Origin: a virus | Length of the DNA: 43,221 nt | IMG/VR virus record: IMGVR_UViG_3300020061_000067 | Coordinates: 1-43,221 of that record | Reading direction: 5' to 3' (one strand) | Part shown: piece by piece, positions 56-8,220 of the stretch | Layout: each line of letters begins with the position of its first letter | How positions within the stretch are numbered: the stretch's first letter is position 1 | Translations under genes and position numbers: made by a program | The notes under the pieces: generated by a model | Told to the model about the DNA's origin: nothing | Seen by the model: the letters and a program-made list of their open reading frames with translations, nothing else | Databases searched by the model: none

Positions 56-703
56 ATGGAAGTATCCCTTTGGTCTATTGACAAGCCGATTCCGTATGAG
101 AAGAACGCACGGAAGTGGAGTCCCGCGGCTATTGAGAAGGTCGCGATGTCGATCAAGACCTATGGCTTTCGCCAGCCGATCGTCTGTGATGCGAAGAACG
201 TTATCGTAATCGGCCACCTCCGGCTAGAAGCAGCGAAGCACCTCGGGCTGGAGAAAGTTCCGGTCCACGTGGCGAAGGATCTGTCACCGGCGCAGATCAA
301 GGGCTTGCGCTTGGCAGATAACCGCACGAGTCAGGAGTCGAGCTGGGACTTCGAGATGCTTGGCGAGGAGTTCGAGGAGCTGAAGGATCTGGACTTCGAC
401 CTCGCCTGGACCGGGTTCGACCCATTCGAGATCGATCCGATTATGGCGGCTGAGTGGACACCTGGAGCAGCGACCGGAGACCTCGGCGAAGAGCATCACC
501 GGAGGGTCGATCCTTCGGTCAGCTTCACCGCAGAGGAGAAGGCTGTCATCGACTCAGCGATCAGTGCCATGCGGGACCGTGAGAGCGACCCGGAGCTAAC
601 GGAGGGCCGCGCGCTTATGTTGATCTGCGGTGAGTTCCTCGGCGACGAAGGGGAATGGCAGGCAACGACGGATGCAGAGTCTACGGTTGGCCTACCATCC
701 TGA
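56..703 (+). CDS. ParB-like nuclease/sulfiredoxin-fold protein
   Basis: A 215-residue protein with a ParB/Srx-type N-terminal domain (about residues 5-95). Visible motifs are the NARKWS-like start, the IVIGHLRLEAA segment (the GHxR motif of the family, about residues 51-61) and the ADNRTS segment about 20 residues later. Such domains bind DNA or CTP, or act as nucleases, and often sit beside phage DNA-modification genes. The C-terminal half is acidic and unrecognised. It is the first gene of the window and lies just upstream of the dpdA/queC cluster, so a role in DNA modification or its regulation is plausible but inferred. The 55 bases before it hold nothing recognisable. Confidence 0.8.
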   Translation: MEVSLWSIDKPIPYEKNARKWSPAAIEKVAMSIKTYGFRQPIVCDAKNVIVIGHLRLEAAKHLGLEKVPVHVAKDLSPAQIKGLRLADNRTSQESSWDFEMLGEEFEELKDLDFDLAWTGFDPFEIDPIMAAEWTPGAATGDLGEEHHRRVDPSVSFTAEEKAVIDSAISAMRDRESDPELTEGRALMLICGEFLGDEGEWQATTDAESTVGLPS

Positions 704-716
704 AGGTGATAGGACA

Positions 717-1486
717 TTGAAGGATCTTCGCTTGGCATACAACCCAGGACCGATAGACGCATACGGAGCACCGGCCTTGCTGGTCTCCTATGTCTACCTG
801 GAGCCCTTCCTCAAGAACAGGACCCGGTATCACTATCGCGATTGGGTAATGGATTCAGGGGCGTTCTCTGCACATGCCAGCGGGCGAGCGGTGGATCTTC
901 AGGCATACATCGACACGTGCAAGCGGCTGATGGAATCCGATCCGTTCCCGCAATCCCCTGCTATCACGTCGGATCGCCTGAGGACCTACTGAAGTCACTG
1001 GCGAGGGACTACCCGAAGATCGCCCTCGGTGGAGCGGTGGGCTACCGCAAGAAGGATGACTGGGCCAAGCAATGCTTCGCGCGAGTCTGGCCATGTAAGA
1101 TTCACGGCTTCGGCTTCGGTGGCGAGAAGTCGATCATGGCGCTTCCCTGGCATTCGGTCGACGCGACGAACTGGGAGATCGGGCCTTGCAAGTTCGGGAG
1201 ATGGAACTCCTTCGGGCACATGAGCGTCCGCGGTAGCCAGCAGGATCTACGGGCCGAGGTCCAGTGGTATCTCCGGCTGGAAGATCGCGCGAGGACCAAA
1301 TGGAAGAAGCAAATGATGGAGCTGGACAGTATTGCCCCGACCGTGCGCCTCGCATTAGATGCGGGTGCGGCGAGTGGTCAGCACGCGGCGATCGCCTTTG
1401 GATCATCGGTCCCCCCCACGCTTCGATTAGCCACTCAAGCAAAAGAGGTGAAAAGGTTCAATGCCCTCAACCATCCTGATTTATAG
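717..1486 (+). pseudogene. dpdA: DpdA-type 7-deazaguanine DNA transglycosylase, frame-disrupted
   Basis: Two reading frames together spell one TGT-like (DpdA) enzyme, which exchanges guanine in DNA for preQ0. Frame 717-992 gives the first part with the VMDSGAFSAHASG active-site segment. Frame 842-1486 gives the second part, with AIPCYHVGSPEDLL, KIALGGAVGYR, KIHGFGFGGEK and SVDATNWEIGP, whose Asp matches the catalytic region. The frames switch (-1) near 925-945. The family's middle segment around 'ALDVIG', roughly 25-30 residues, is missing at that point, which suggests a deletion that is not a multiple of three. The TTG at 717 behind AAGGTGAT is the best start. The 3' end overlaps queC. It is either a dead gene, a sequence or assembly error, or an unusual recoding case. 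Confidence 0.75.
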
Positions 1487-2120
1487 CGGCGGTCTCGATT
1501 CGACCGTGCTGCTCTACCGGCTACTGGCATCAGGCCGAACAGTGAAAGCGCTGTCGATCGATTACGGCCAACGGCACCGCAAGGAACTGATCAGCGCCGC
1601 GAGGTTCTGTGAGCGACTCGGGATCGAGCAACGGATCGCCGACCTCAGTTCGATCGCCCCACTGCTGGCGGGAAGCTCTCAGACCAGCGAGATCGATGTT
1701 CCCGATGGTCACTACGCCGAAGAGTCGATGAAGGTCACCGTCGTTCCGAATCGCAATATGATCATGCTATCGCTGGCGATCGGCTGGGCGGTCAGCCTGA
1801 AATACGATTCGGTCGCTTACGCAGCACACGCCGGTGATCATGCCATCTATCCGGACTGTCGCCCCGAGTTCGTCGACGCGATGATTGCCGCGGCAGCGGT
1901 GGCGAACTGGCATCCCGTTGCGATCGACCGGCCATTCATGGATCTGTCGAAAGCGGATATCGTTCAGGCCGGACACCGGCTAAGGGTTCCGCTGGAAGAG
2001 ACCTGGAGCTGCTACAAGGGTCACGACGTCCACTGCGGACGCTGCGGTACCTGTGTCGAACGGCGGGAAGCTTTCGAGCTGGCTGGCGTTCCGGATGCGA
2101 CCCAATATGTTTCGGCTTGA
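1461..2120 (+). CDS. queC: 7-cyano-7-deazaguanine (preQ0) synthase QueC
   Basis: QueC converts 7-carboxy-7-deazaguanine to preQ0 using ATP and ammonia. The protein (219 residues, normal length) has the PP-loop SGGLDST at residues 9-15, the [10 protein letters not shown] segment that follows it in the family, a central [13 protein letters not shown] motif, and a C-terminal zinc site made of the Cys in WSCYKG plus HCGRCGTC. The start is ATG with GAGGTGA about 10 bases upstream. It overlaps the end of the dpdA remnant by 26 bases and the queD start by 14 bases, so it is co-transcribed with its pathway partners. No glutamine amidotransferase fusion is seen, so the product should be preQ0 rather than an archaeosine-type base. 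Confidence 0.97.
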
Positions 2121-2472
2121 GAAGCAATTCCGATTCGAGGCTTCGCATCAGCTACCGAACCATGACGGCAAGTGCGCCCGTTTGCATGGCCATTCCTGGA
2201 TCGGTCGCGCTGTAGTCGAGGGCGTCGAGCTTCACACGACCGGTCCGAAGGTCGGCATGTTGATTGATTATGCCGACATAAACGAGCCGGTTAAACGGCT
2301 GGTCGAAGCGTACCTGGATCACTACCACCTGAACGAATCGACTGGGCTGGTGAATCCGACAAGCGAGGAGCTGGCGCTCTGGATCTTCAACCGACTGAAG
2401 CCGCTAATCACCGGGCTATCCGCCATCGTGATCGAGGAGACCTGCACTAGTCGTTGCGAATACCGCCCATGA
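2107..2472 (+). CDS. queD: 6-carboxy-5,6,7,8-tetrahydropterin synthase QueD
   Basis: QueD makes 6-carboxytetrahydropterin from dihydroneopterin triphosphate, the step after FolE. The protein is about 121 residues, normal for the family. It has [22 protein letters not shown], interpreted as the zinc His and catalytic Cys region (one His in ASH, two in LHGH), a DYADINEPV segment, DHYHLNE, a PTSEELALW segment and a C-terminal EETCTS. The ATG at 2107 is chosen because family proteins begin just before [12 protein letters not shown]; an ATG at 2095 is also in frame. It overlaps queC by 14 bases and queE by the ATGA at 2469. Confidence 0.96.
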
Positions 2473-3083
2473 ACGCGTACACGGTCAATGAAATCTTTTA
2501 CTCGCTCCAGGGAGAAGGAGCCAGGGCAGGCACCGCGAACGTCTTCGTCCGGTTCACTGGCTGTAATATGCAATGCGACCTGGAGCCGGGTCCGCTGTCT
2601 CCTGGAGGCTTCGCCTGTGATACGGAGTTCACCAGCGGGCGGAAACTAACCGCGGTGGAGATCCTGGCAGCGATCAAGGAAGAGTCCGCGGTCTGCCGCT
2701 GGGTGATCCTGACGGGCGGCGAACCGGCGTTACAGGTCGACGCGGAGCTGGTCGCCGCATTGAAAGCCGCGGGCTACTCCATCGCCATTGAGACGAACGG
2801 ATCGATCGATGTCAGCGACCTCGGGCTGGACTGGATCGCCTGCTCTCCGAAGGTGGCCGAGCACGCCGTCAAGCTGAAACGTGCTGACGAGCTTCGGTAT
2901 GTTCGCGCGCACGGCCAGGGGATACCGAGACCGGCGATCCAAGCGGAGTGCCGTCTGATCTCACCGGCATTCGATGGACCGACCCTGAACCCGAGACACC
3001 TCGCATGGTGCATCCAACTCATAAAAGACAACCCGGAATGGCAACTGTCAACGCAACTCCACAAAGCGTGGTTGGTCCGATAA
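2469..3083 (+). CDS. queE: 7-carboxy-7-deazaguanine synthase QueE (radical SAM)
   Basis: QueE is a radical SAM enzyme that contracts the pterin ring to 7-carboxy-7-deazaguanine. The N-terminus has the substrate-binding EIFYSLQGEGARAG, then the [4Fe-4S] cysteines at about residues 32, 36 and 50. The last of these is in CDTEF, which follows a 13-residue loop rich in Pro and Gly, so the spacing is C-x3-C-x13-C rather than the compact C-x3-C-x2-C. Downstream are ILTGGEPALQ (SAM binding) and IETNGS. It starts at ATG 2469 in an ATGA overlap with queD. The C-terminus ends in STQLHKAWLVR, close to the family's QxHK pattern. Confidence 0.95.
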   Translation: MNAYTVNEIFYSLQGEGARAGTANVFVRFTGCNMQCDLEPGPLSPGGFACDTEFTSGRKLTAVEILAAIKEESAVCRWVILTGGEPALQVDAELVAALKAAGYSIAIETNGSIDVSDLGLDWIACSPKVAEHAVKLKRADELRYVRAHGQGIPRPAIQAECRLISPAFDGPTLNPRHLAWCIQLIKDNPEWQLSTQLHKAWLVR

Positions 3084-3649
3084 CCGGGATCGATCACCAT
3101 ACCGCCGTGTTCGCGGTCCGGACGCTCCTGGAGCACCTCGGCGAGAGCCCCGACCGTGAGGGCCTCCTGCGGACCCCGGAGCGTGTGGTGGCTTCCCTGC
3201 GCGAAATGACGGTCGGTTACAGCATGGATCCGGCTGAGATCCTGACGACGACGTTCAGCGATGAGTGCGACGAGATGATCGTGGTCGGCGGAATCGACTT
3301 CTACTCGCTATGTGAGCACCATATGCTCCCATTCGTTGGGACGGCGACGGTCGGTTATATCCCGAATGGCAAGGTGCTCGGTCTATCGAAGATCCCGCGG
3401 CTGGTCGAATGCTTCGCCCGGCGATTACAGATTCAGGAGCGCCTGACAAACCAGATCGCTAGCGCGTTACAGGCGCACCTCCAGCCGCTAGGCACCGGCG
3501 TGATCATCCACGCAATGCACTTCTGTGTCGCTTGCCGAGGCGTCCAGAAAGCGAACACGCGAATGACGACCTCTAGCCTGCTGGGGAAGATGAGAGACTC
3601 CGCCCCGGCGAGGTCGGAATTCCTCGGCTTCACTGAGTCCAGGCACTAA
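3038..3649 (+). CDS. folE: GTP cyclohydrolase I FolE
   Basis: FolE opens GTP to dihydroneopterin triphosphate, the first step to preQ0 (and folate). Visible features are EHLGESPDREGLLRTPERV near the N-terminus, the zinc-binding SLCEHHMLPF with Cys and His, GKVLGLSKIPRLVE, and the C-terminal HFCVACRGVQK containing the third zinc ligand. The length (about 203 residues from the ATG at 3038) fits bacterial type IA enzymes. An in-frame ATG at 3005 is an alternative; the 3038 start overlaps queE by 46 bases and has only a weak ribosome site. It completes a phage-encoded GTP-to-preQ0 route together with queD, queE and queC. Confidence 0.96.
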   Translation: MATVNATPQSVVGPITGIDHHTAVFAVRTLLEHLGESPDREGLLRTPERVVASLREMTVGYSMDPAEILTTTFSDECDEMIVVGGIDFYSLCEHHMLPFVGTATVGYIPNGKVLGLSKIPRLVECFARRLQIQERLTNQIASALQAHLQPLGTGVIIHAMHFCVACRGVQKANTRMTTSSLLGKMRDSAPARSEFLGFTESRH

Positions 3650-3654
3650 AGATT

Positions 3655-4167
3655 ATGGGATTACGAGGACCAGCTCCGAAGCCGACCGATCTCCGCAAGT
3701 TCGAGGGGAACCTCGAGAAGAAGCCGCTTCCGAAGCACGAGCCGCAGTATCCGCCAGGGCTTCCGACGCACCCGGAGAAGATCTCCGAGGCAGCTCAGGA
3801 TATCTGGGACACGCTCGTCGACGAGATGGCTGGCAAGGCGGTTCTTAGACGCGTAGACAAGCGCGCGCTCTGGCAGCTATGTGAGGACGAGGCGATCATC
3901 ACCGAGGCGTACGCCGGGCTCTGGCAGATGGTCACGATGATCGACGAGAAGGCGCGCAAGGAAGGCAAGTCTCTACCTGGCGGACCGATGATCGCTCTCC
4001 TGTCGACGACTAAGGGGCGACTAACGATGGCCGCGATCAGAGATCTCGCGAATCGCGTCATTATCGAGCGTCGCGAGTTCGGCCTGACTCCGTCGTCGCG
4101 GTCTCGAATCGAAGCGACTGCAGAAGGCGGAGCGCTCGACTCGCTGGAGATGAAGCTGTGTGGCTGA
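3655..4167 (+). CDS. terS: Terminase small subunit, P27 family
   Basis: The small terminase recognises phage DNA and regulates the packaging motor. The protein (170 residues) starts MGLRGPAPKPTDLRKFEGN, typical of P27-family small terminases (rGRPPKPtxLkxLeGN). It continues with a helical core containing AQDIWDTLVDEM, VDKRALWQLCEDEAIITEAY and a C-terminal FGLTPSSRSRI segment that is common in the family. It overlaps the large terminase start by 8 bases, the usual arrangement. The gene begins the morphogenesis region six bases after folE, with no visible promoter or terminator between, so the modification and packaging genes may share a transcript. Confidence 0.93.
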   Translation: MGLRGPAPKPTDLRKFEGNLEKKPLPKHEPQYPPGLPTHPEKISEAAQDIWDTLVDEMAGKAVLRRVDKRALWQLCEDEAIITEAYAGLWQMVTMIDEKARKEGKSLPGGPMIALLSTTKGRLTMAAIRDLANRVIIERREFGLTPSSRSRIEATAEGGALDSLEMKLCG

Positions 4168-6889
4168 ATATCGCCCGGCGACCTGCGCGTACTGCTTCGC
4201 TGACTCGTGGTGTGAGACGCGAGCGAACGGTAAGCCGCAGTGTCGGGCTTGCAAAATAGAGCGATTTTACTCTGAAATTCTGTACCCTCCGCTCGGTTAT
4301 AGCCTGATGGGCTGGCAGCGGAAAGTCCTTCGCGACATCTACGGGAAGATCGATCTCGACACCGGCGAGCGTCAGTATCGATCGGCCTACATCTCGGTCG
4401 GCAAGAAGAACGGCAAAGCATTGAGTCTGTCCACTCCGATCCCAACACCTACGGGCTGGACCAGCATGGGCGATATCCGCACAGGAGATTCCGTATTTGA
4501 TGAACGCGGAGCGATCTGCAAGGTCATCGCTACAGGCGAAGTCCAGACCGGAAGGCCATGCTTCGAAGTCACATTTTCAGACGGCTGCAAGATTGTCGCC
4601 GACGCAGAACACGAATGGTTAACGCACACTCGCAAGCCAAAGAACAAAATCCTGATTCACACTACGGCGGAGATCGGCGCAAGCCTCAGGATTGAAAGTC
4701 CCGGCAGCGCAGGCGCTAATCACGCCGTAGCGGTTTCAGGCGCGATTCAGTGTCCGATTGCTGATCTGCCGGTTCCGCCCTATGTCCTGGGCGCGTGGTT
4801 AGGTGATGGCACTTCCTTAAATGCAACCTTCACAGTCTCTGTTAGCGATGCGCATATTTTGAATGAATTTGAACGTGAAGGTGTTTGCTGGCATCGATTC
4901 AAATCTAGCGGAGGATCGAACTCCGCACTGACGGTCCGCCTAGGAGGGAAGCAGGGTCACCACAACACGCGAACTCGTCCTAATCTACAGCGCACCCTTC
5001 GGATTTCGGGACTTCTTGGAAAGAAGCACATCCCCGCTGCTTATCTCCGCTCATCTATCGATCAGCGATTCGCTCTCCTTCAAGGATTGATGGATACCGA
5101 CGGCTACTGCTCTCCGGTAGGCCAGTGCGAATTCACCGCGACCAACCCGCGATTGGCCGCCGGTGTCCTGGAGCTGCTGCGCACACTAGGCTTCAAGCCC
5201 ACTTTTTACATACACAACGCCACGTTAAACGGACGCATAATTGGACCGAAAATCAGGATTCAGTTCTGGCCATCGAAGGAGCCTGTATTTCGGCTCCCGC
5301 GAAAAACCGAGCGCACCCGAAGTTTGAAGTGTGACAGAACCAAGAGGCGGCACATTATTTCGGTTACTCCGACTGAGAGCGTGCCAGTTCGTTGTATCCA
5401 GGTAGATTCTCCGTCGCACATGTTCCTCGCTGGCGAGAGCATGATCCCGACTCATAACAGCTTTCTTATCGGCGGTCTACCGCTGTATCACCTGCTAATG
5501 GAAAACGAACACAACCCGGAAGCATACGGAGCCGCGGCGGCGAAGGACCAAGCCGCGATCGTATTCCGCGCAGCGTCTCAGCTCGTCCAGGCAAACCCCG
5601 AGCTGAATGCCTTGCTGCGGGTGCTGCCGTCGACTAAGCGCATCGTACGGCGTGACGGTGGCGGGTTCTATACCGTTCTCAGCGCGGACGGCGACGTGCA
5701 GGACGGCGTCGAGCCGAGCCTACTGATCCGAGATGAGATCCATCGCTGGAAGTCGGCGAGAGCGGAGACCTTAAAGGATGTCCTTACCAAGGGTCAGATC
5801 TCGCGCTCGCAGCCTCTCGATATCGCGATCACGACAGCCGGAGCAGAGTACGAGTCGCTTCTCTGGTGGCAGGAATACCAGCACGCGAAGCGAGTTCTCG
5901 AAGGTTCCGTCAAGAACAGCAAGCTCTATGCCGCGATCTGGGAAGCTGACCGGAAGCGAATCGATACAGACCCGGATTACTGGAAGTCACGAGAAGCTCG
6001 CGTGGCCGGTAACCCGAGCCATGAAGACTTCGAAGGCGGCTTCTTGCGAGACTCTGCTCTCGTCGGAGAGCTGGATAAGGCGCTCGACGAACCCTCGGAG
6101 CGCTCGAAGTATCTCCGGTATCACCTCAATGTTCCGATCAGTCAGCAGGAAGAGCCGATCATCGACATGGAGGCGTGGAAGCTCTGCGGCGGCGGCGAGG
6201 ACCTGCGCGAGTGGCCGATCTACGATGTCGATCTACTCATTCGGAAGTGGGGCCTTCTCGATCGTCCTTGCTGGGCTGGCGTCGATGCGTCCTGGACGAC
6301 AGATTTAACCGCGGTGGTGTTCGTCTTCCCGCCCTTCGAAGGCGTCGAAGAGTGGACCCTGCTCCCGTTCTTTTGGATGCCGGAGGGTAGAGTCCCGACG
6401 CTGGAGCGCATCTGCCGAGTACCCTATGCGAGTTGGATCGATACCGGCTTCATTGAGACGACCGCGGGTAACGGAATCGATATGCGCGCGGTCAAGGATC
6501 GGATCAAGTGGGGCCGCGAGATGTTCGAGTTGATCGAGGTCGACTTCGACAGAGTCAACTTCCGGACCCAGGCGATGGAACTGCTCGACGATGGGATCGA
6601 CACGATCGAAGTAACGCAGACGTTCCTGCTCCTCAGTCACCCGACGAAGTTCCTCCTAAGCTCGTATGTCGATCAGAAGATCAGACACGGGAATAACCCG
6701 GTTCTGAACTGGATGGCGAGCTGTATGCAGCTCCAGTACGACCGGAAAGATAACTGCCAGCCGACGAAGCCGGAACGCATGAAGTCGGCGAAACGGATCG
6801 ACGGTCTCGCCGCAACCGTGACGGCGCTTAGCCGGTCGCTCGTAGCTGAGGATACCGGCGTAACGGCTACAGTCAGGAGCGTCCGTTAG
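4160..6889 (+). CDS. terL: Terminase large subunit with in-frame intein
   Basis: This is the packaging ATPase and nuclease that cuts and pumps DNA into the prohead. The ORF encodes 909 residues, of which residues 87-433 are an intein, leaving a 562-residue mature protein, normal for the family. Before the intein are a CxxC...CxxC zinc-ribbon-like N-terminus (C9, C12, C28, C31) and GYSLMGWQRKVLRDI. Splicing restores the Walker A motif GKKNGKS. Further on are LLIRDEIHRW (Walker B), ITTAG (motif III-like), and the nuclease domain beginning AGVDASWTTDLTAVV with its acidic residue. The start is GTG at 4160 inside terS, and the stop overlaps the portal GTG start by one base (TAGTG). Without splicing the ATP-binding loop is interrupted, so the intein controls packaging competence. 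Confidence 0.95.
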   Translation: MAEYRPATCAYCFADSWCETRANGKPQCRACKIERFYSEILYPPLGYSLMGWQRKVLRDIYGKIDLDTGERQYRSAYISVGKKNGKALSLSTPIPTPTGWTSMGDIRTGDSVFDERGAICKVIATGEVQTGRPCFEVTFSDGCKIVADAEHEWLTHTRKPKNKILIHTTAEIGASLRIESPGSAGANHAVAVSGAIQCPIADLPVPPYVLGAWLGDGTSLNATFTVSVSDAHILNEFEREGVCWHRFKSSGGSNSALTVRLGGKQGHHNTRTRPNLQRTLRISGLLGKKHIPAAYLRSSIDQRFALLQGLMDTDGYCSPVGQCEFTATNPRLAAGVLELLRTLGFKPTFYIHNATLNGRIIGPKIRIQFWPSKEPVFRLPRKTERTRSLKCDRTKRRHIISVTPTESVPVRCIQVDSPSHMFLAGESMIPTHNSFLIGGLPLYHLLMENEHNPEAYGAAAAKDQAAIVFRAASQLVQANPELNALLRVLPSTKRIVRRDGGGFYTVLSADGDVQDGVEPSLLIRDEIHRWKSARAETLKDVLTKGQISRSQPLDIAITTAGAEYESLLWWQEYQHAKRVLEGSVKNSKLYAAIWEADRKRIDTDPDYWKSREARVAGNPSHEDFEGGFLRDSALVGELDKALDEPSERSKYLRYHLNVPISQQEEPIIDMEAWKLCGGGEDLREWPIYDVDLLIRKWGLLDRPCWAGVDASWTTDLTAVVFVFPPFEGVEEWTLLPFFWMPEGRVPTLERICRVPYASWIDTGFIETTAGNGIDMRAVKDRIKWGREMFELIEVDFDRVNFRTQAMELLDDGIDTIEVTQTFLLLSHPTKFLLSSYVDQKIRHGNNPVLNWMASCMQLQYDRKDNCQPTKPERMKSAKRIDGLAATVTALSRSLVAEDTGVTATVRSVR
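4418..5458 (+). mobile_element. Class 3-type intein with LAGLIDADG homing endonuclease in terL
   Basis: This is a 347-residue in-frame insertion between the Lys and Ser of the Walker A motif GKKNGK|S. It begins with Ala instead of Cys or Ser, followed by block A-like STPIPTPTGW and DIRTGDSVFD. Block B is DAEHEWL with His151 and Trp153. Block F is VRCIQVDSPSHMFLAG with Cys412, and block G is MIPTHN followed by Ser434 of the extein, with Thr431. The Trp-Cys-Thr set at B:12, F:4 and G:5 plus a non-nucleophilic first residue is the signature of class 3 inteins. The middle holds two LAGLIDADG-type motifs, LGAWLGDGT (Asp216) and LLQGLMDTDG (Asp314), so the homing endonuclease looks intact. Base use (more A/T-rich codons) differs a little from the flanks. 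Confidence 0.93.
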
Positions 6890-8220
6890 TGTTTTCCGAA
6901 ATGGTTGCGCGCGTCAAAGGCTTGTTGGATGGCTTCTCTTCCGGCCCGATTCAACTGTTCGAGAAGGGAGCCACATTCGAGCAGGCGGAATGGTATGCGC
7001 GCAACGGTTTTCCTGGGATCGCGGCGAATCTCTCTGGCGGATCACCGGCATGGTCCGGCGAGTCAGTCACCGTCGATATCGCACTGAATCATTCGGTCGT
7101 CTGGTCTTGCAATCGGATCATCAGCGAATCCACAGCGTTCTTGCCGCTGGTCCTCATGCAGCGCCTGAAGAACAAGGACAAGCGCGTCGCTTACGAGCAT
7201 CCGATGTATACGGCGCTTCACGATTCGCCGAACGACGAAATGACGGCGATGGGCTTTCGTGAGACGCGGACAAGCGACTGCGTATTGCAGGGCGGCGGCT
7301 TCGCTCAGATCTACCGTCGTAGCGGGACGGGGACCGCGATCGAGCTTGGCGCGCTGTTACCTTCGCAGGTCACTCCGGACCGCGAGAAGACCGGCTTTAA
7401 GCGTCTGGTCTACGTAGTCAAAGAGGGCAACAGTCCAGGCAAGACCTACACCGTCGAGAAGGGCAAGCCGCAGGACATCCTACATATTCGCGGTCTCGGA
7501 TCGGATGGAATCCGCGGTTACTCAGTCATCTCGATCGCGAGACAGTCGATCGGTACGGCGATCGCCGCGGAGAAGAACGTCGCGAAATTCTATGCGGCAG
7601 GCGGGCGTGTTCCGTATCTGCTAGAACATCCGACCAAATTCAAGAATGATCAGGACTTCGACCGCTTCCGGAAGCAATGGGCCGAGACCTACTCGGAGCC
7701 CCACACGGTTCCGATTCTTGAGAACGCGATCAAGTATAAGCAGACCGGTCTCAGTAACGCCGACGCGCAGCTTCTCGAATCTCGCCAGTTCTCGATTCCG
7801 GAGATTTGCCGGTGGTTCTCTGTCTCGCCGCATCTCGTCGGCGATCTCTCGCGAGCGACCTTCTCGAACATTGAACAGCTCGCTCTAGAGTTCGTGACGA
7901 AGACGCTCTCCGCATGGATTACGCGATGGGAGCAGGAGCTATGGCGCTGTGTCCTGACGGCGGAAGAGCGCGCCGAGGGTTACTACTTCAAGCACAACCT
8001 AAACGCGCTACTCCGCGGTGACTTCCAAAGCCGGATGGCCGGTTATTCGACGATGCTCCAGAACGGCATCGCTTCCGTGAACGAAGTGCGAGACCTCGAA
8101 GACTGGAATCCGATCGACGGCGGCGACGATCACCACATCCAGCTCAACATGCAGACGCTACCGGGCGGGGGCGCACAGGTCCCGACGTTAGTCCGGCTGG
8201 GCCAGCCCGCGAATTCCTAG
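6889..8220 (+). CDS. Portal protein, HK97 family
   Basis: The portal forms the ring at the capsid vertex through which DNA is packaged and to which the tail joins. The protein is 443 residues, typical of HK97-type portals. Recognisable features are the NHSVVWSCNRIISESTAFLPL segment early on, the HPMYTALHDSPN motif, an HIRGLGSDGIRGYSVI region, and the C-terminal ESRQFSIPEICRWFSVSPHLVGD with NIEQLALEFVTKTL. It starts at GTG 6889, overlapping the terL stop. Order terS-terL-portal-protease-capsid is the standard one for this head type. Confidence 0.96.
   Translation: MFSEMVARVKGLLDGFSSGPIQLFEKGATFEQAEWYARNGFPGIAANLSGGSPAWSGESVTVDIALNHSVVWSCNRIISESTAFLPLVLMQRLKNKDKRVAYEHPMYTALHDSPNDEMTAMGFRETRTSDCVLQGGGFAQIYRRSGTGTAIELGALLPSQVTPDREKTGFKRLVYVVKEGNSPGKTYTVEKGKPQDILHIRGLGSDGIRGYSVISIARQSIGTAIAAEKNVAKFYAAGGRVPYLLEHPTKFKNDQDFDRFRKQWAETYSEPHTVPILENAIKYKQTGLSNADAQLLESRQFSIPEICRWFSVSPHLVGDLSRATFSNIEQLALEFVTKTLSAWITRWEQELWRCVLTAEERAEGYYFKHNLNALLRGDFQSRMAGYSTMLQNGIASVNEVRDLEDWNPIDGGDDHHIQLNMQTLPGGGAQVPTLVRLGQPANS

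Follow-up and report, generated by a model that had tools for sequence, protein, structure and literature searches.

A class 3 intein with a predicted homing endonuclease, inserted into the Walker A loop of a viral large terminase

The large terminase gene (terL) of the virus record IMGVR_UViG_3300020061_000067 (positions 1 to 43,221; this whole stretch of 43,221 bases is hereafter the window) is interrupted, inside the codons of the Walker A loop, by an insert that we read, with a probability of roughly 0.93, as a class 3 intein carrying a LAGLIDADG homing endonuclease (Table 1). The sequence, the exact ends of the insert, its catalytic residues, its predicted fold and the empty sites of near relatives are direct observations.

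Table 1. Features of the terL region, in window coordinates.
Feature	Position	Strand	Basis
Small terminase subunit, before terL	3655..4167	+	Pfam Terminase_4, E 2.4e-09
terL (large terminase subunit), intein in frame	4160..6889	+	ORF, GTG start, 909 aa, Pfam
Intein, 347 aa, Ala1 to Asn347	4418..5458	+	Translation, phmmer, empty site in L083/L084
N-terminal half of the splicing domain, with blocks A and B (Ala1, Cys48, Asp62, His65, Trp67)	4418..4693, end approximate	+	DnaB intein alignment, A1, model
Cys48 codon	4559..4561	+	Aligned with redox-switch Cys48 of M. smegmatis DnaBi1 (PMC6195587, available text)
His65 (B:10), Glu66, Trp67 (B:12)	4610..4618	+	Alignments
LAGLIDADG homing endonuclease domain, about residues 119-309	4772..5344	+	Pfam, PI-SceI alignment, motifs, fold
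Cys326 (F:4), expected first nucleophile	5393..5395	+	53/53 aligned rows
Thr345 (G:5), His346 (G:6), Asn347 (G:7)	5450..5458	+	Alignments
Ser434, +1 nucleophile and, after splicing, Walker A serine of the ATPase	5459..5461	+	ORF, L083 comparison
Portal protein, after terL	6889..8220	+	Pfam Phage_portal, E 3e-96

The interrupted terL gene and its insertion point

The gene encodes an N-extein of 86 aa and a C-extein of 476 aa and matches the Pfam families TerL_ATPase (PF03354, E 3.6e-25) and TerL_nuclease (PF20441, E 1.8e-19), the first of these matches being split around the insert, with profile positions 2-39 at 4313-4432 and 37-177 at 5465-5890. The insert lies in frame between Lys86 and Ser434 (VGKKNGK/SFLIGG), its 347 codons contain no stop, and its protein begins ALSLSTPIPTP (start ALSLSTPIPTPTGW, end MFLAGESMIPTHN). 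The insert thus separates the Walker A Lys from the next Ser/Thr of a PF03354 terminase, as do TerL P-loop inteins of the site a type. Across the same site, the intein-free gene of the relative L083 reads AAGAAGAACGGCAAA on the left and AGCTTTCT on the right and matches the window bases on both sides, and this identity on each flank confirms the exact ends of the intein. The earlier note had placed an intein at 4418-5458, splitting the loop between Lys and Ser, and had proposed a comparison with intein-free terL genes of relatives: stop-free translation, split TerL_ATPase match and empty L083 site now fix the insert to the base, the split match and the L083 junction agree with the Lys-Ser position, and the comparison found both L083 and L084 empty, with a clean junction in L083.

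Upstream of the terminase genes, queC, queD, queE and folE, which we take to be a set of 7-deazaguanine DNA modification genes, are clustered at 1461-3649 (+ strand). They adjoin a DpdA-like (queuine tRNA-ribosyltransferase) gene at 630-1486 (+ strand) that looks broken: positions 29-90 of PHROG 887 match in one frame (ORF 630-992) and positions 128-214 in another (ORF 842-1486), with about 37 profile positions absent and about 17 bases between the two matches.

The endonuclease domain and the empty terL alleles

Two motifs, LGAWLGDG at intein residues 124-131 (with D130) and LLQGLMDTDG at 220-229 (with D226 and D228), together with Lys203, characterize the central domain. In the alignment to PI-SceI, the yeast VMA1 intein, D130, Lys203 and D228 correspond to D218, Lys301 and D326, presumably the catalytic residues of that enzyme. 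An AlphaFold2 model computed on alignment A1 reached a pLDDT of 91.7 and a pTM of 0.91, only residues 179-185 falling under 50, and matched PI-SceI (1ef0) over its whole length, including both LAGLIDADG repeats (Z 27.5, rmsd 3.5, 326 residues), at an identity of just 19%; PI-SceI is a class 1 intein without the Trp-Cys-Thr (WCT) set. Two motifs, acidic residues and a PI-SceI-like predicted fold are thus all present, as expected of a LAGLIDADG intein endonuclease, and the domain looks intact, in agreement with the claim of the earlier note that both motifs are there. Conservation was assessed in a 53-row alignment (the window, 23 IMG/VR loci, 14 phage records and 15 GTDB contigs) from which six exact duplicates were removed, L014, L020 and L064 were dropped for frame breaks and 13 GTDB loci (L067, L069, L071-L081) were left out; the three Asp residues are kept in 39/53 (D130), 49/53 (D226) and 42/53 (D228) rows.

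At the DNA level, the endonuclease would be expected to cut intein-free terL at the conserved GKKNGK-SF codons, after which repair would copy the intein into the cut allele. We infer such cutting and homing, as well as a recent gain, in part from the relatives of the terminase itself. A search with a profile of C-exteins gave at least 600 stretches, of which the best 80 loci were kept; three of these end before the site, and the 77 readable ones comprise 76 empty sites and one filled site (L148), a tally that is neither a census nor an occupancy rate because loci already in the data set, such as L004 and L033, stand outside this capped list of 80. L095, one of the empty loci, matches an intein weakly at another position (E 7e-04). 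Among the matches listed, the closest terL relatives are L083 (C-extein 74% identical) and L084 (64%), both intact and empty. In the extein tree the window and L083 are sisters (91/88) and L084 joins the pair (98/98), while a single clade of the intein-bearing terL genes of the window, L004 and L033 was rejected by the extein data (p-AU 0.0064). Since the nearest relatives are empty and the intein-bearing terL genes do not form one clade, the intein was probably gained recently by the window lineage and has probably been mobile in the past; a clean loss in both L083 and L084 is the alternative, and gain is the simpler reading. The suggestion of the earlier note that the element may still be mobile is strengthened accordingly, the nearest terL relatives among the matches listed having an empty site.

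It is rather unlikely, in our estimate, that the intein still splices while its endonuclease is already dead, the insert being kept by vertical descent since its loss must be precise. The Pfam matches of the domain are indeed weak (LAGLIDADG_3 E 9.8e-06, Hom_end below its cut-off), and the relatives L021, L066, L068 and L070 have lost the endonuclease domain; in the window, however, both motifs are complete and the aligned acidic residues preserved, the endonuclease part of the model is confident except for residues 179-185, and the closest terL genes among the matches listed, L083 and L084, are empty. The window and the matched empty alleles L083/L084 provide a cleanly bounded case in which homing into terL is testable outside mycobacteriophages.

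Independent gains in the window and L033 lineages are likely, judging mainly from the identity of 34% between the two inteins and from the empty relatives, because the intein tree leaves the two as possible sisters. Extein data reject the window and L033 as sisters (p-AU 0.0009), whereas intein data do not (p-AU 0.164) and the L033 branch is long, and independent gain was for these last two reasons dropped as a firm claim. Extein trees built without L083 and L084 grouped the window with L033; the intein tree favors L003/L004 as the sister of the window intein (97/90 in one tree, 93/83 in another). As regards the 20 bases flanking the site on each side, the window shares 18 + 18 with the empty L083, as compared to 14 + 12 with the intein-bearing L004 and 13 + 16 with L033. 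These flanks are thus closer to the empty L083, and within them no co-conversion tract from L004 or L033 donors was seen.

Splicing residues and class assignment

Class 3 inteins are recognized by a B:12 Trp, an F:4 Cys and a G:5 Thr together with the absence of an N-terminal nucleophile (PMC3196547, available text). The window intein has Ala1, His65, Trp67, Cys326, Thr345, His346, Asn347 and a +1 Ser, besides Asp62: its first residue, with the ends set by L083, is not Cys, Ser or Thr, alignment to solved class 3 inteins puts W67 at B:12, C326 at F:4 and T345 at G:5, and H65 falls at B:10, H346 is penultimate, N347 terminal and S434 at +1. His65, Trp67, Cys326, Thr345 and Asn347 are invariant in the 29 rows of alignment A1, and in the 53-row alignment His65 and Cys326 are kept in 53/53 rows and Trp67 and Thr345 in 52/53, the exceptions being an Asn instead of Trp67 in L052 and a Val instead of Thr345 in L019. 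The closest solved relatives found by phmmer are the class 3 DnaB inteins 6rix, 6riy and 6bs8 (E 2.1e-31 to 4.4e-30), and 768 of 50,697 phage records match the intein at E 0.01 or better; E values down to 2e-31 against a class 3 structure and the number of matching phage records exclude chance. The match to the NCBIfam model intein_Cterm scores below its cut-off. Class placement comes from residues and similarity ranks and not from trees with class 1 and class 2 inteins. The earlier note had recognized the initial Ala and the WCT set as Trp153, Cys412 and Thr431 of the ORF, which are intein residues 67, 326 and 345 at B:12, F:4 and G:5, and its class 3 assignment holds up, with class 3 DnaB inteins as the closest relatives and with the conservation seen in A1 and in the 53 rows.

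That the insert instead belongs to class 2, with Ala1 and a direct attack by the +1 Ser, or is a decayed class 1 intein, is very improbable: Ala1 by itself is compatible with class 2, but the complete Trp-Cys-Thr set occupies the aligned positions, and phmmer gives 108-112 bits to class 3 chains as compared to 23.7 for the WCT-engineered gp41-1 (6riz) and 18.2 for gp41-1 itself (6qaz), a class 1 intein (PMC7664689, available text). We also find it hardly credible that the intein has died, or that the insert arose from a join in the assembly, so that this gene would yield the phage no working terminase: although decayed class 3 inteins such as Arth_1007 exist (PMC3196547, available text) and a relic adjoins terL in L033, the window insert has no frame breaks or stops and all catalytic residues, its junction is base-clean against L083, and a 59% identical intein sits at the same point in L003/L004.

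The splicing chemistry of the favored class 3 intein we infer as follows. After translation, Cys326, aided by His65 and Thr345, would attack the Lys86-Ala1 peptide bond, and the acyl chain would then be transferred to Ser434. Cyclization of Asn347 would release the intein, and the exteins would join as VGKKNGKSFLIGG, restoring the ATP loop. Before splicing, the packaging ATPase is expected to be inactive.

Cys48 of the window intein aligns with Cys48 of M. smegmatis DnaBi1, a protein with two cysteines according to PMC6195587: oxidants link this Cys48 to the catalytic Cys118 in a disulfide and so block splicing; all Cys48 mutants tried there lost splicing, and the residue is called non-conserved. 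In our alignment it is present in 40/53 rows, and in 24 of 37 representatives under 60% identity, for which reason a redox switch, if it exists here, might be widespread among the P-loop inteins of phages. Its column nevertheless ranks 46th among 129 splicing-domain columns, and 13 rows do not have it, so the class does not require Cys48 and its conservation is not strong; the window intein also has seven further cysteines that DnaBi1 does not. By analogy the window intein might act as a redox switch on DNA packaging, an idea to which we give little credence; if true, a Cys48-Cys326 disulfide would make head filling pause in an oxidized host cell.

Relatives in other P-loop genes and known systems

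The kind of intein found here is already known, as P-loop and class 3 TerL inteins, and the splicing and cutting of TerL inteins, were published in 2016 (Kelley et al., PMC5050341). There, terminase inteins of mycobacteriophages are the commonest, with seven insertion sites and classes 1 and 3; site TerL1-a separates the invariant Walker A Lys from the Thr, site b is shifted by one residue, five of the seven terminase intein kinds were assayed and all spliced, and the two assayed for cutting both cut intein-free terL. Like the window intein, those at TerL1-a and TerL1-b lie in the Walker A loop of TerL. Mycobacterium phage JeTaime has a WCT intein, equated with site a on position, at NGK/T of its TerL, that is at the same Lys/Thr point and in a TerL of the same Pfam family (PF03354); it is 41.5% identical to the window intein, while its +1 residue is Thr in place of Ser and the two C-exteins are far apart (26.9% identity). 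The novelty implied by the earlier note thus does not stand in view of these precedents, and the window case and the spread of the family leave existing knowledge of inteins unchanged. What is new, on the sequence comparisons made here, is that the nearest terL relatives among the matches listed are empty and that the three intein-bearing terL genes of this branch are not one clade.

Outside terminases, the class 3 DnaB inteins M. smegmatis DnaBi1 (6bs8) and M. chimaera DnaB1 (6rix, 6riy) share with the window intein Ala1, the DxxH motif, Trp67, the F:4 Cys, the G:5 Thr, the THN end and Cys48, and they superpose on its model with Z 21.5-21.8 and rmsd 1.2-1.9 (for the splicing part against 6bs8, Z 21.8, rmsd 1.2 A, 125 residues, 48% identity). 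They are small and lie in a bacterial helicase, whereas the window intein has a full endonuclease and lies in a phage terminase. DnaBi1, according to the available text of PMC6195587, is a class 3 intein (Asp62, His65, Trp67, Cys118, Thr137, His138, Asn139) in the P-loop of DnaB, with a +1 Ser as in the window and, unlike the window intein, without endonuclease. Terminases with a Hint domain and a LAGLIDADG endonuclease are described for phages RaK2 and K64-1 (PMC5259590, available text). The nearest inteins found, those of the IMG/VR metagenome contigs L003/L004 (59% identity), lie at the same Lys/Ser point of a related TerL (C-extein 48.6% identical).

As we read the junctions, the intein immediately follows the Lys of a GK[S/T] P-loop in 29 of 31 IMG/VR loci, a count that includes L016, where the contig starts at the Lys and only this residue is seen; the two others are L019 and L020. 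The same holds for 9 of 14 phage records, one reading AK/T; of the other five inteins, three occupy different positions in TerL, one lies in a Cas4-family exonuclease and one in TerL a single residue beyond this point. When 20 C-exteins were scanned with Pfam, eight matched TerL_ATPase (L004, L005, L008, L021, L028, L033, L042, L053), two Terminase_3 types (L007, just below cut-off, and L009), two Terminase_6 types (L013, L015), one DnaB (L055), two AAA types (L018, below cut-off, and L063) and one DUF5906 (L011, below cut-off), with no match for four (L010, L012, L017, L039). One class 3 family thus occupies the GK/S or GK/T codons of several terminase families, DnaB and other ATPases. In the intein tree, with group labels assigned here in part from product names, a minimum of 6 label changes accounts for the TerL1 P-loop rows, compared with 8.5 under shuffled labels, and L005 (TerL1) clusters with L012, L013 and L015 (97/86), two of which are Terminase_6 types. 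The varied host families and this mixing in the tree suggest that the intein family has passed from one P-loop gene to another.

Several relatives depart from the common pattern. Directly upstream of the intein-bearing terL of L033, a separate ORF (2833-3318, + strand) encodes a 142-residue class 3 intein relic, 47.5% identical to the terL intein of the same locus and 37.3% to the window intein, in which the block B His is replaced and the last residue is Asp, followed by a nine-residue stump, SFLVGGLPV, resembling the terL C-extein. The TerL intein of L033 itself (3612-4616) has Leu as first residue instead of Ala and keeps His, Trp, Cys, Thr and Asn. In terL of Vibrio phage VCO139 (L052, 1801-2814), the intein has Cys at F:4 and Thr at G:5 and an Asn aligned at B:12, which reflects either a misalignment or a true deviation from the WCT set. 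Finally, L023-L027 and L029-L032 form a tight group on a deep branch of its own, with shorter inteins (301 residues after extension) that follow a GPGK P-loop and have Arg in place of Lys203.
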